Of a stretch of DNA of 26,474 bases, positions 2 to 15,605 are shown piece after piece (position 1 is the stretch's first letter; the number at the start of each line of letters is the position of its first letter). The notes below the pieces were generated by a model. That model had not been told where the DNA came from. It ran no database searches and saw only the letters and a list, made by a program, of their open reading frames with translations. The translations under genes and the position numbers were made by a program. This DNA comes from a virus. The stretch covers positions 1 through 26,474 of IMG/VR virus record IMGVR_UViG_3300034064_000660; one strand, 5' to 3'.

Positions 2-1750
2 AATTTAGGTAGGTCTGTTTCTCAAATTGGATCATCATCACAAGGCGGATTTAAAAAAGTAGAAGATTCTACAAGAGGTGCTGGTAGAGCATTAACAAGT
101 CTTTCTCTTGTTGCTCAAGATTTACCATTTGGTTTTATTGGTATTCAGAATAACTTACCAGCATTAATTCAAACATTTGGAGAGTTACAAAGAACATCTG
201 GGGGAGTAAAAGGAGCATTAGGTCAGTTAGTATCTTCAATAAGTGGACCAGCTGGTTTATTTTTTGCATTTAGTGCAGCAACTGCTGGAGTAACATTTCT
301 TGTACAAAAATATGGATCATTAGGAAATGCAATAGATGCTATATTTTCTAAAAATGAAAAACTAACTTTAAGCATACAAGAAGCTGCTAAAAGCTATAAA
401 GAATTTCAAAAAAGTGTTAGGGATTCTAACGATGTAATAAATCAAGAATCAGCAACAACATCTGGTCAAATTGCAAGAGTTGAAGCATTATCAAATGTTA
501 TAAAAAACTCTAATACATCTTATGAAAATCGTAAAAAAGCTATATCTGACCTACAAAGTATAAGTGAAGATTTTTTTGGTACATTAAATTCAGAAAAATT
601 AAATTTTGAAGAATTAGAAAAAGCGGTAAAAAACTATACAGCATCTATTGTTCAAGCAGCCATAACAAAAGGATTTGAAGATGATATTGTATCTACAAAT
701 AAACAATTAGTTGCACAACAAAAATTATTAAAGAAATTAGCCGAAGAAGTAAAAGTTGCAAGAGCAGCTCCTATACAAATACAAGGTATAGAGGGTAGAA
801 GAGAAGATTTAAGATTAATTAAAGAAGCGGAAAGTAGATACAATGCACAAAAAGTTGTTGTAGATAATTTGAAATCTTCTTTAAAAGAATTAAATACTGA
901 AATAAATAAAAGTGTAACAGAACAAGTTAATTTACAAAAAAATGTAGATAACACTACTGAGTCTTTAAAAAAACAAGGTACTGCTACAAAAGGACCAGAA
1001 GTAGATAAAGAGTGGGAAAGAATGCAAGGATTGATTGCAAAATCAAACCAAAGACTTGCTGAATATTATGCAAAACAATTACAGATACAAGCAGACAAAA
1101 ATCTGCAAAATAAATTAAAAGAAGATGCAGAAGCATATAAATTGCTTGAGCAATCAGTACTTGGTGCTAACGAAGCAAATGCAGAATTTGGTATAGGATT
1201 ACAAAATCAAATTCAAGCAATAGATACTACTTATGCAAATGCAACAATAGCAACTGGAGAAATTATACAAAGGTTTAGAGATGCACAAATGTCTGGTGCA
1301 AATGAATTTGCTCGTCTAAAACAACAAGCATCTGAATTTGATGAATTAAAATCAACAATAGAATCAAACTTAACAAGACCATTTAGGGACTTTTTTGATG
1401 ATTTGTTGACAAATGGTAAGATGTCGTTTGATAGTTTTGCTGAACTTGCAAAAGACGCTTTAAAAAGAATAGCTGCACAACTTATAGCAACTGGATTGGC
1501 GCAATTATTGGCAAATATTTTAAACCCAGCTGGAGCAGCAGCATCAGCAGCAGTTGCGTCAAGTAAAGGAGGTGGAATATTTGAAATATTTAAAAATATA
1601 CTTGGAATAAAAAGTGTTGCAGCACCATCATTTGGTGGTGTTGGTGGCGGTCCAATGCAGATGGCTGGTGCGGTGAATTTAACTTTAAGAGGTAGTGATT
1701 TAGTGGCATCTATAAATAGAACAAATTCAACAATAAACAGAGTTGGCTAA
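2..1750 (+). CDS. Tail tape-measure protein, C-terminal part (5' end outside window)
   Basis: The frame is open from the left edge for 582 residues, so the true start lies outside. It would set tail length and occupy the tail tube before DNA ejection. Visible features are a hydrophobic, membrane-like stretch near residues 79-101 (GPAGLFFAFSAATAGVTF), a long polar, Lys/Glu/Gln-rich helical region with coiled-coil character (about 115-450), and a Gly/Ala-rich hydrophobic C-terminus (about 485-560) ending in LTLRGSDLVASINR, an ending I associate with Bacteroidota phage tape-measure proteins. The gene is strongly AT-rich compared with the fibre genes downstream. It overlaps the next gene by 8 nt. 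The call rests on composition, architecture and tail-gene context rather than on a catalytic motif. Confidence 0.82.
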   Translation, partial: NLGRSVSQIGSSSQGGFKKVEDSTRGAGRALTSLSLVAQDLPFGFIGIQNNLPALIQTFGELQRTSGGVKGALGQLVSSISGPAGLFFAFSAATAGVTFLVQKYGSLGNAIDAIFSKNEKLTLSIQEAAKSYKEFQKSVRDSNDVINQESATTSGQIARVEALSNVIKNSNTSYENRKKAISDLQSISEDFFGTLNSEKLNFEELEKAVKNYTASIVQAAITKGFEDDIVSTNKQLVAQQKLLKKLAEEVKVARAAPIQIQGIEGRREDLRLIKEAESRYNAQKVVVDNLKSSLKELNTEINKSVTEQVNLQKNVDNTTESLKKQGTATKGPEVDKEWERMQGLIAKSNQRLAEYYAKQLQIQADKNLQNKLKEDAEAYKLLEQSVLGANEANAEFGIGLQNQIQAIDTTYANATIATGEIIQRFRDAQMSGANEFARLKQQASEFDELKSTIESNLTRPFRDFFDDLLTNGKMSFDSFAELAKDALKRIAAQLIATGLAQLLANILNPAGAAASAAVASSKGGGIFEIFKNILGIKSVAAPSFGGVGGGPMQMAGAVNLTLRGSDLVASINRTNSTINRVG

Positions 1751-13976: not shown

Positions 13977-14561
13977 ATGGGACTAAATCAAAGTCAAGCA
14001 AAAGGCGTGTTTTTAAGCATCACAAATGGTAAATTAGTAAGACAATTTCCATCAGCAACAGACAAGTCAGTATCTCGTGTTAACAAAATGGGTCGTGAAG
14101 TCCACGAAGAGTTCTATGACTCACTCAGTGGATGGCTTACAGATGTAAAGACCAAGCAGAGTGAGTACGGAAAGCTTTGGGTTATTACCCTTAAAGATGA
14201 GGATAGCTATTTCAATCTTGAGATGAAGTATGCAAGTGGCTATGCCACGTCATTTCTCAAAGCATTACCAAATGCAGAGTTATCGGAAGTCATTACCTTA
14301 TCACCTAAGTTGATTGTAGATGGTGATAAGAAGCAGTCAGTACTTTTCATTTCGCAAAATGGTAAAGGACTCAAGCATTACTGGACCAAAGATAATCCAC
14401 GTGATCTACCACCAATGGTCAAGATTAAAAGGAAAGGAATAGAAGAGTGGGATGACTCTGAACGTATGGAATATTTGGAAGATTATGTAAAAACTGCTAT
14501 CTTACCAAAGATTAAACCTACCCTCTCAGACGTTAACGAGGGAGACGATACACCGTTTTAG
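13977..14561 (+). CDS. Single-stranded DNA-binding-like protein with acidic tail
   Basis: The protein has 194 residues. The body is beta-rich and contains YGKLWVITLKDEDSYFNLEM, compatible with an OB fold. The C-terminus ends NEGDDTPF, very similar to the acidic DDDIPF-type tip through which bacterial SSB recruits partners. It is followed by the RNA elements and a RecB-like nuclease, and lies in the same region as the other replication genes. Function is inferred mainly from the tail and context; a recombination annealing protein is the main alternative. Confidence 0.6.
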   Translation: MGLNQSQAKGVFLSITNGKLVRQFPSATDKSVSRVNKMGREVHEEFYDSLSGWLTDVKTKQSEYGKLWVITLKDEDSYFNLEMKYASGYATSFLKALPNAELSEVITLSPKLIVDGDKKQSVLFISQNGKGLKHYWTKDNPRDLPPMVKIKRKGIEEWDDSERMEYLEDYVKTAILPKIKPTLSDVNEGDDTPF

Positions 14562-14680: not shown

Positions 14681-14710
14681 GACCTGATGTTTCTACATTG
14701 GGTCTTTTTT
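14681..14710 (+). terminator. Rho-independent terminator just before the tRNA-like gene
   Basis: A 10-bp stem (GACCTGATGT / ACATTGGGTC, two G-U pairs) with loop TTCT is followed by six T. It lies 6 nt ahead of the tRNA-like gene. The loop and its flanks are the same as in the 13329 terminator. Confidence 0.82.
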
Positions 14711-14716
14711 AAACTT

Positions 14717-14838
14717 AGTCAGGTGGCGAAATTGGTAAACGCAAGATGTTGGCGCATCTGTAAGTACATCATCATTCTATGTTTATTGATGTAAAAAAGA
14801 GAATGATTTACATGTTGGTTCGAATCCAACCCTGACTA
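14717..14838 (+). tRNA. Unusual class-II-like tRNA (tRNA-Leu-like body, anticodon uncertain)
   Basis: The acceptor stem AGTCAGG / CCTGACT (14717-14723, 14831-14837), D arm GCG-AAATTGGTAAA-CGC (14726-14742, with GG) and T arm GTTGG-TTCGAAT-CCAAC (14814-14830) are perfect and match Leu/Ser-type spacing. The discriminator is A; CCA is not fully encoded. Two parts are abnormal. The anticodon stem AGATG/CATCT closes a six-base loop, TTGGCG, which would read GGC (Ala) if U33 is the second T. The variable region spans 54 nt (14760-14813) instead of about 10-20 and can form long alternative hairpins. The acceptor lacks the G3:U70 pair of tRNA-Ala. It may be functional, a decoy, or decayed. Confidence 0.7.
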
Positions 14839-14852
14839 CAAAACTTTTAACT

Positions 14853-15605
14853 ATGAACAATTATACTATTGACTTGAACAAAAACAGAATTGAGTTTCTC
14901 GACTCACGTTTTTATGCCACACCTAGTGGTGGCTATGTCCCTTCGGTCACAACAATCTTAGAATGCTTCCCAAAGGGTGCAGAGTTTTACAAATGGCTCA
15001 AAGAAATGGGTGGTGATGCCGACACCATCCGTGATGAGGCTGGTCGTAGAGGCTCTAATGTCCACGCATTGACCGAGAGGTATGACGATGGAGAGGAGGT
15101 ATCTTATTTGGACCATAATGGCTTCCCAGCGTATAAGAATTTAGAATGGGCAATGTTTGAAAGGTATGTTGACTTTTGCACTACCCACAAGCCAAGCATT
15201 GAGATGATGGAAGCACATTTTGTGAGTGAAAAATTAGGTTTTGCTGGAACTTTAGATAGGGTAGTGACCCTAAATGGTAAGAGGATATTATTGGATATCA
15301 AGACATCAAATAGTGTGCAAGATAGCTATTGGTTGCAATTATCCGCTTATTACGAGTTGCTGAGTGAGATTGCAACGGATGTCAAAAGCATTGATGAGGT
15401 AGGTATCTTATGGTTAAATGCCAAGACCCGTACAACTGGTAAAGGTGGTGCAATACAAGGAGTAGGTTGGCAGTTAATCACCAAGCAGATTAGTGAGGTG
15501 TTAAGCTATTGGACATTATTCCAAGCAACCCATCAACTATGGCTATATATGAACGAGACAACCAAACCAAGACAATTATCTTACACTTTAAAACATAAAA
15601 AGTAA
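14853..15605 (+). CDS. PD-(D/E)XK (RecB/Cas4-like) nuclease
   Basis: The 250-residue protein has the RecB-family nuclease signature: RRGSNVHALTE (His71), Glu120, LGFAGTLDRV (Asp135), LLDIKTS (Asp148, Lys150) and YWLQLSAYYELL (Gln162, Tyr166). The spacing is that of phage RecB-like exonucleases. I see no four-cysteine iron-sulphur cluster, so it is not a full Cas4. It may act in recombination or genome processing with the SSB-like protein upstream. It starts in an AACTATG context and shares its stop A with the next ATG. Confidence 0.8.
   Translation: MNNYTIDLNKNRIEFLDSRFYATPSGGYVPSVTTILECFPKGAEFYKWLKEMGGDADTIRDEAGRRGSNVHALTERYDDGEEVSYLDHNGFPAYKNLEWAMFERYVDFCTTHKPSIEMMEAHFVSEKLGFAGTLDRVVTLNGKRILLDIKTSNSVQDSYWLQLSAYYELLSEIATDVKSIDEVGILWLNAKTRTTGKGGAIQGVGWQLITKQISEVLSYWTLFQATHQLWLYMNETTKPRQLSYTLKHKK

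Follow-up and report, generated by a model that had tools for sequence, protein, structure and literature searches.

The question raised by the locus at 14717–14838 on the plus strand of this 26-kb virus record is what purpose is served by an RNA that has the outline of a tRNA and, where an anticodon loop belongs, the six bases TTGGCG followed by a 54-nt variable region. We refer to the whole 26,474-nt stretch of DNA as the window. These features, described in an earlier sequence-only reading of the window, are all present in the sequence. That reading overlooked that the element belongs to a large and apparently undescribed family of phage RNAs built as modules, in which the shell is constant and the middle hypervariable.

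A tRNA shell around a conserved fold

The Rfam tRNA model RF00005 matches exactly 14717–14838, scoring 43.3 bits against a gathering score of 29, and the A at 14838 reads as the discriminator; ARAGORN called no tRNA over this interval. The free fold of the element is better than that of all but 1 of 200 dinucleotide shuffles (z −3.0). The 5′ acceptor strand AGTCAGG (14717–14723) pairs at 7/7 positions with CCTGACT (14831–14837), and the D arm, GCG-AAATTGGTAAA-CGC (14726–14742), reads as the tRNA-Leu type; the T arm is GTTGG-TTCGAAT-CCAAC (14814–14830). The earlier description of the acceptor, D and T arms as perfect and Leu/Ser-like fits the sequence, the body being Leu-like. A 7-bp acceptor, a D arm, a T arm with a TTC/A elbow and the standard tertiary pairs are present as in a decoding tRNA; a 5-bp anticodon stem closing a 7-nt loop with U33 is absent, the loop having 6 nt in the window and in its family. 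The view of the element as a class II body without a normal isoacceptor identity was upheld. Between the D and T arms lie an anticodon-like arm, AGATG-TTGGCG-CATCT (14744–14759), and the variable region (14760–14813), which is composed of two helices followed by nucleotides 47–48, here AT (14812–14813). The helices are GTAA/TTAC (14760–14763 with 14808–14811) and ATCATTC/GAATGAT (14771–14777 with 14801–14807), the latter extendable as ATCATTC(T)/(A)GAATGAT. All of these parts are on the plus strand, as are the neighbouring features.

The upstream gene (13977–14561, 194 aa) has no match in Pfam or PHROG and ends in an acidic C-terminal tip, DDTPF, as found in single-strand DNA-binding proteins; judged from this tip alone, its product may be SSB-like. 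A terminator-like hairpin with a T run was read from the sequence just upstream of the element (14681–14710), and it recurs in nearly all close relatives, with or without the tRNA-like RNA. The downstream PD-(D/E)XK exonuclease gene (14853–15605; PHROG 298 exonuclease, 1.6e-38; Pfam PF12705) has its start codon 15 nt past the 3′ end of the element. The host of the window phage is likely a member of the Bacteroidota, because the isolate sequences closest to its DNA-polymerase exonuclease gene are those of Bacteroides and Cellulophaga phages, and those closest to the N-terminal part of its primase-polymerase are of Cellulophaga phages. The best single match of the primase-polymerase is an unclassified environmental phage.

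Selection on the fold was assessed in an alignment of five sequences, comprising the window element, L006/L047, and L021, L024 and L067, which were added by pattern scans. Over this alignment, 96.9% of cells in the structure given above are paired. Fifteen of the 44 pairs are altered on both sides, a number matched by 0/500 shuffles, and 0–1 double-sided changes were left when the partner was slid by 1–3 columns as a control. The covarying parts are the acceptor (4/7 pairs altered on both sides), the D-loop hairpin, the anticodon-like stem, the lower variable helix and the T stem (3/5 pairs). In L067 the anticodon-like stem AGATG/CATCT is replaced by GAGTA/TACTC; the loop TTGGCG is invariant in all five members. 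The long-arm fold was likewise conserved in the comparison of relatives that the sequence-only reading had proposed: GTAA/TTAC and ATCATTC/GAATGAT are kept together in 5/5 members, the former with a compensatory A-U to G-C change (GTGA/TCAC) and the latter with an invariant sequence. That reading had offered a second, mutually exclusive fold of the variable region, ATGTAAA/TTTACAT, which also exists in the sequence but is not kept, since only 63% of its cells are paired and 5/7 of its pairs are broken in some relatives. A pseudoknot between the loop and the variable region, TTGGC/GCCAA, is possible in L021 and L067, and in L024 with one G-U pair; it is not claimed for the window, being broken there and in L047 (76% of cells).

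The gene order SSB-like gene, element, exonuclease gene is common to the window, L047, L021 and L067. Between the window and L021, DNA identity is 79% in the element and 67% in the exonuclease gene (61% in protein); the SSB-like genes give no blastn match and have 52% protein identity. Taken together, the covariation, the invariant loop and helix, and the greater conservation of the element DNA relative to its neighbour genes indicate that the window family is under purifying selection on its RNA fold.

Relatives at the same locus were compared using nineteen IMG/VR loci retrieved via the exonuclease gene, whose identity to that of the window is 90–100% in 17 of the 19, 66% in L018 and 40% in L020. 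In the interval before this gene, L006 has the RNA of the window, and the RNA of L012 is different but shares the tRNA shell. The others have neither type of RNA there, and several of those without a tRNA-like RNA have other short elements at the site. The D loop of the window element is without a hairpin, whereas that of L006 (and L047) contains an extra hairpin of 8 bp; the middle of L006 is that of the window. L012 and L006 have their shell in common, hairpin included, and their middles are wholly different. This sharing of a middle with the window and of a shell with L012 indicates that shell and middle move independently at the window's own locus.

Other sequences recur at this site. A repeated short unit, TTATGCCTAAAATTGTCACTGCGGTGACTAAATT, fills the intergenic site before the exonuclease gene in L007, L008, L009, L012, L014 and L016. 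A hairpin motif, TGAC-N2-stem-GGAAAGAC-stem (e.g., GATGACTGCTTGGAAAGACAAGCA), stands shortly upstream of many tRNAs and tRNA-like genes (seen in L021, L077, L071, L109 and L078) and also before the exonuclease gene in L010/L017/L019, which are relatives without the tRNA-like RNA; it is possibly a processing or transcription signal.

Constant shells and exchangeable middles in viral genomes

IMG/VR was scanned with patterns for a hairpin-bearing D arm, for a looser version of it and for a plain 5′ shell, GTCAGGTGGCGNAATTGGTANACGC, and elements were taken from the pattern matches whose 3′ half fitted. Pairing of the acceptor and T stem was required, so that pairing rates are conditional on this requirement. 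Because the D arm and, in one scan, some of the acceptor were set by the patterns, constancy of the 5′ shell is partly by construction; the argument for a class rests on features outside the patterns, namely the T arm, nucleotide 48, A73, C74 and the acceptors that were left free. At least 238 elements were found in IMG/VR. Among the matches listed, the T arm, which lay outside both search patterns, is GGTTCGAATCC-like in nearly all elements, nucleotide 48 is T in 216/238 (A15-T48 in 201, C48 opposite G15 in 2), and A73 and C74 occur in 86% and 96%, respectively. In the D-hairpin set, in which the pattern left the acceptor free, 18 different acceptors occur, nearly all with a matching 3′ strand. 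A class of RNAs with a constant tRNA shell therefore exists, the shell consisting of a Leu-type D arm, a T arm, an acceptor and, mostly, an A15-U48 pair and A73-C74. The window element itself has the acceptor, D arm, T arm, elbow contacts and A73-C74 end of a tRNA, and selection has maintained them.

Forty-two pattern matches were left out at first extraction. About two dozen were chance matches of the looser D-hairpin pattern in coding sequence, and most of the remainder belong to the class but have short middles or bulged acceptors or run into the end of a contig. The match in L140 is an ordinary tRNA-Leu and was rejected as a member.

Elements with the AGTCAGG shell stand in phage tRNA arrays among canonical tRNAs that have acceptors of their own, and large phages have up to about ten elements each beside their canonical tRNAs. 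About a dozen such model matches occur within 14 kb of L167 and ten across 91 kb of G417; a few of the model matches are canonical tRNAs. In L299, the D arm of the element is nearly identical to that of an adjoining ordinary tRNA-Leu. Among the matches listed, 180/238 elements are on the strand of the nearest open reading frame, and several lie 10–20 nt before an ATG. A search for a shared partner protein near the elements yielded none, the commonest family of open reading frames being present in just 19/152 contigs.

The segment between the D and T arms, which we call the middle, is folded, hypervariable and 20–140 nt long. Among the matches listed, blastn grouped the middles into 193 clusters, the largest with 5 members. 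The 179 distinct middles listed were compared with chance for remnants of an anticodon arm: a 5-bp stem with a 7-nt loop at the anticodon position was present in 3 (1.1 expected), 6-nt loops at that position in 9 (1.5 expected; partly the window family), and a 5-bp partner for the anticodon-stem strand at any position in 43–48 (32–37 by chance). An intron in the anticodon loop was rejected for the class, since removing the insert restores no canonical arm in most middles. Canonical tRNAs were examined with ARAGORN in 12 contigs with tRNA arrays, where 145 tRNAs have 126 distinct acceptors, and T33 is present in 137/137 of those without a shell acceptor. The middles are nevertheless structured, with a mean fold z of −0.93 over the 179 listed, and the strand before nucleotides 47–48 is partnered in 92 of these, as against 27 expected. 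In a second family of middles (L180, L076, L192, L116 and L151), the stem standing where an anticodon stem would be covaries, and its loop TTATAG could pair with CTATAA of the variable region, an invariant pseudoknot candidate. In a third (L073, L160, L125 and L233; compare L226 and L290), the middle can be read by eye as a putative H-type pseudoknot. The same middles recur with acceptors and D loops that differ, and from phage to phage they adjoin unrelated genes. An exchangeable structured domain thus replaces the anticodon arm and variable region in the element. Antisense matches of the middles to their own contigs are at chance level, the longest exact match averaging 9.28 nt versus 9.34 nt in shuffles, and a protein-binding or structural domain is thus more likely than a guide to the phage's own transcripts. 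The reverse exchange is seen in L122 (13030–13101, minus strand), where a tRNA in the AGTCAGG shell has a fully normal Lys (TTT) anticodon arm.

Several individual elements depart from the common plan or have recurrent neighbours. In L112, L115 and L143 the acceptor is bulged, or what seems to be an additional hairpin segment separates the T arm from the 3′ acceptor strand; at about 480–720 (minus strand) of L277, a T arm plus an acceptor-like helix is nested in the D loop of one element, and in L280/L238 a T-arm-like hairpin lies inside a middle. The sequence GGGAGGCTACTGCCAGAGTGTAGCAAA directly precedes the tRNA-like RNA in L024, L068, L073, L074 and L078, and elements preceded by it often follow the gene of an ERF recombinase or a C-terminal sequence resembling it (in L073, a Pfam ERF match). 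A structured sequence, CGCACGGCAACC...GGCAATGCGAA...CTCACNGTGCGTAGGTAA, occurs inside the AGTCAGG shell at L071 9783–9935 (minus strand), and it occurs once free, downstream of the element in L073/L074. A non-coding block, GTACCCATAC..GACGATGGGCTAA.TAAGATACAA.TTCCG...GAGTAGAATGC, lies between tRNA-like genes in L152/L220 and L071, flanked in L152 by the closing repeats CTCAAG/CTTGAG.

Beyond IMG/VR, the hairpin-bearing shell pattern was found in 0 of 84,980 bacterial and archaeal genomes, and the plain shell in only three MAG contigs among them; the plain shell was also absent from a sample of 394 other genomes belonging to the same phylum as the Chitinophagaceae MAG. Blastn searches of INPHARED with the window element, the D-hairpin shell and a full element yielded no true member among isolate phages. 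A 3′-shell query reached an uncultured 735-kb phage (LR756501), which has an element with an AGTTAAG/CTTAACT shell (L304:2917–3026) and, by model score alone, three further class-model matches. A match in the crAss-like genome cr4_1 was rejected, as it read as the 3′ end of a tmRNA-like sequence missing from the annotation; at about L303 2307–2525 this deposited genome has what looks like an unannotated tmRNA. The isolate Tenacibaculum phage pT24 has two tRNA-Undet genes with a class I tRNA fold and a 9-bp arm with a 3-nt loop. They are not members by shell, but they show that tRNA shapes lacking an anticodon do occur in a phage of this host phylum that can be cultured. The nearest isolates indicate that the carriers of the class are mainly Bacteroidota phages. 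No description of the class was found in a search of the open-access literature other than preprints.

Possible functions

We infer that the element probably mimics tRNAs for a purpose other than protein synthesis, and a tRNA shape that changes quickly, occurs in several copies and does not decode is easier to reconcile with a decoy or inhibitor than with translation. Our leading proposal, held tentatively, is that the element is a non-decoding tRNA mimic with an exchangeable payload, its likeliest use being as a decoy or inhibitor in trans. The element would be transcribed with its neighbours, released by RNase P together with the tRNA 3′ machinery, and completed with CCA like the canonical tRNAs of the phage, the tRNA ends allowing this processing, CCA addition and binding by elbow-recognising proteins. 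Being unable to decode, it would use the shell to present the middle to proteins that act on tRNAs. The shell would engage a tRNA-recognising partner, which could be a tRNA-cleaving defence nuclease or toxin, a synthetase or some other enzyme acting on tRNA, and the target would be determined by the middle, which evolves fast. Such an arrangement would account for the presence in one phage of several copies whose middles differ, and for the exchange of middles among shells. Action in trans is favoured because the same middle adjoins unrelated genes in different phages; the frequent position of elements just before start codons (window, L180, L125 and L160) also fits a cis role. Two published accounts provide a precedent, in that retron-Eco7 and Septu cut tRNA-Tyr in the variable loop and phage tRNAs counter both (PMC11555353, PMC13096335), and the Septu authors propose there a decoy or supplement role for phage tRNA (PMC13096335). 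A broader and more doubtful proposal is that phages, for which the nearest isolates point mainly to Bacteroidota hosts, maintain arsenals of natural RNA effectors built on a tRNA scaffold, in which the constant shell would provide processing, stability and targeting to tRNA sites and the exchangeable, fast-evolving middle would inhibit a particular host defence or factor. By analogy, and with the same doubt, the logic of such effectors might be compared to that of modular anti-defence proteins, but made of RNA.

The element could alternatively act in trans outside counter-defence, either charged by LeuRS or occupying a synthetase, EF-Tu or a tRNA-modifying enzyme, and thereby shift host translation or amino-acid signalling. 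LeuRS and SerRS in several bacteria are known not to need the anticodon, and the near identity of the Leu-type D arm to that of the tRNA-Leu adjoining it in L299, together with the prevalence of A73 among the matches listed, is consistent with such a role; a fixed job in translation, however, needs neither a hypervariable middle nor several middles per phage, and we regard this alternative as rather unlikely. Punctuation in cis, whereby RNase P and the 3′ machinery cut the tRNA shape, set the 5′ end of the downstream mRNA and insulate it from upstream transcription, would account for the 15-nt spacing to the exonuclease start codon, the excess of listed elements on the strand of the nearest open reading frame and the several that lie 10–20 nt before an ATG. 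It leaves unexplained the selection on the middle (the invariant TTGGCG and ATCATTC/GAATGAT, and the covarying stems), and it is improbable given that the same middle stands before unrelated genes, that many elements cluster within tRNA arrays and that most close relatives have the same genes without the element.

Mobile or recombination cassettes, in which near-identical tRNA ends serve as homology for swapping short inserts and the RNA is of little use, would account for such ends in many phages and in several copies per genome, for presence or absence at one locus among phages with 90–99% identical exonuclease, and for the recombination of shells and middles. We give this little credence, as half of the D-hairpin set has differing, covarying acceptors, the middles keep their structure through compensatory change, the tertiary pair 15-48 is kept, and the element outlasts the divergence of its neighbouring genes. 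That the 43.3-bit RNA is a decoding tRNA, whether its 6-nt loop reads alternative or shifted codons or its anticodon loop or variable region contains an intron, is very unlikely. One AGTCAGG-shell gene does have a normal Lys anticodon arm (L122), but excision of an intron restores no arm in most middles, a 7-nt loop is found in just the 3/179 listed middles noted above, and the window open reading frames use the standard code. The alternative-decoding tRNA of the sequence-only reading is accordingly unsupported, nearly all of the 179 listed middles being without a canonical anticodon arm; its suggestions of a decoy and of a tRNA with an inserted element are both still reasonably tenable. Least probable by far is a decaying tRNA-Leu, for which the odd loop, the long variable region and absence from most close relatives might speak. 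Compensatory changes in every variable stem and a loop invariant over wide divergence refute it, in agreement with the earlier argument from perfect stems. Relatives have the same RNA with compensatory changes, another RNA in a tRNA shell or nothing, and not an ordinary tRNA-Leu with random indels.

Relation to known RNAs

Phage tRNA-Leu (RF00005) resembles the class in its acceptor, D and T arms, elbow, A73-C74 end and place among phage tRNA genes. The class differs in having no 7-nt U33 anticodon loop, a hypervariable middle and an optional D-loop hairpin, and in that one acceptor is common to many different RNAs per genome. tmRNA also has tRNA-like ends and an insert at the position of the anticodon arm, but class members have no tag ORF, a real D arm and inserts of 20–140 nt; no covariance-model or ARAGORN tmRNA match was found at the window element, and ordinary tmRNAs occur separately in some element-carrying phages. 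YrlA and other bacterial Y RNAs (RF02553), which contain a tRNA-mimicking module, are known for a Ro60-binding stem. At the gathering threshold the window element matches tRNA only, and the sole YrlA signal (15.7 bits against a gathering score of 69) sits at a neighbouring tRNA-like RNA in L024. The Bacillus cereus pseudo-tRNA tRNA-Other is likewise a tRNA-like RNA serving outside translation; as described (PMC3399842), it differs in being one gene that has a Trp anticodon and is believed to form part of a larger regulatory RNA, with no modular family. The phage tRNAs that counter retron-Eco7, Septu, PrrC and PARIS are similarly tRNA genes under pressure from tRNA-cleaving defences, some of them variable-loop cutters, but they are functional decoding tRNAs that replace lost tRNA, whereas class members presumably do not decode (PMC11555353, PMC13096335). 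GOLLD RNA (RF02032) is a structured RNA among phage tRNA genes that forms homo-oligomers; it is about 400 nt in the Rfam model and without a tRNA shell (PMC12286853). In L201, a GOLLD RNA (1293–1710, 262 bits) directly adjoins class members in a phage tRNA array.

The architecture of a constant tRNA shell and an exchangeable middle, with many per genome, appears to be new and is set apart from YrlA, tmRNA and GOLLD; on a stricter view the class could be a further type of pseudo-tRNA. If the class is what it seems, it would account for a share of the undetermined or misassigned tRNA calls in phages, since ARAGORN misses the elements or gives them spurious isotypes. In that case, phages use the tRNA as a general RNA scaffold, as engineers do, for many folded payloads, and a new group of non-coding RNAs would be available to examine for counter-defence activity. 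The purpose of phage tRNA genes would also become directly testable, with RNAs that resemble tRNAs and probably do not decode.
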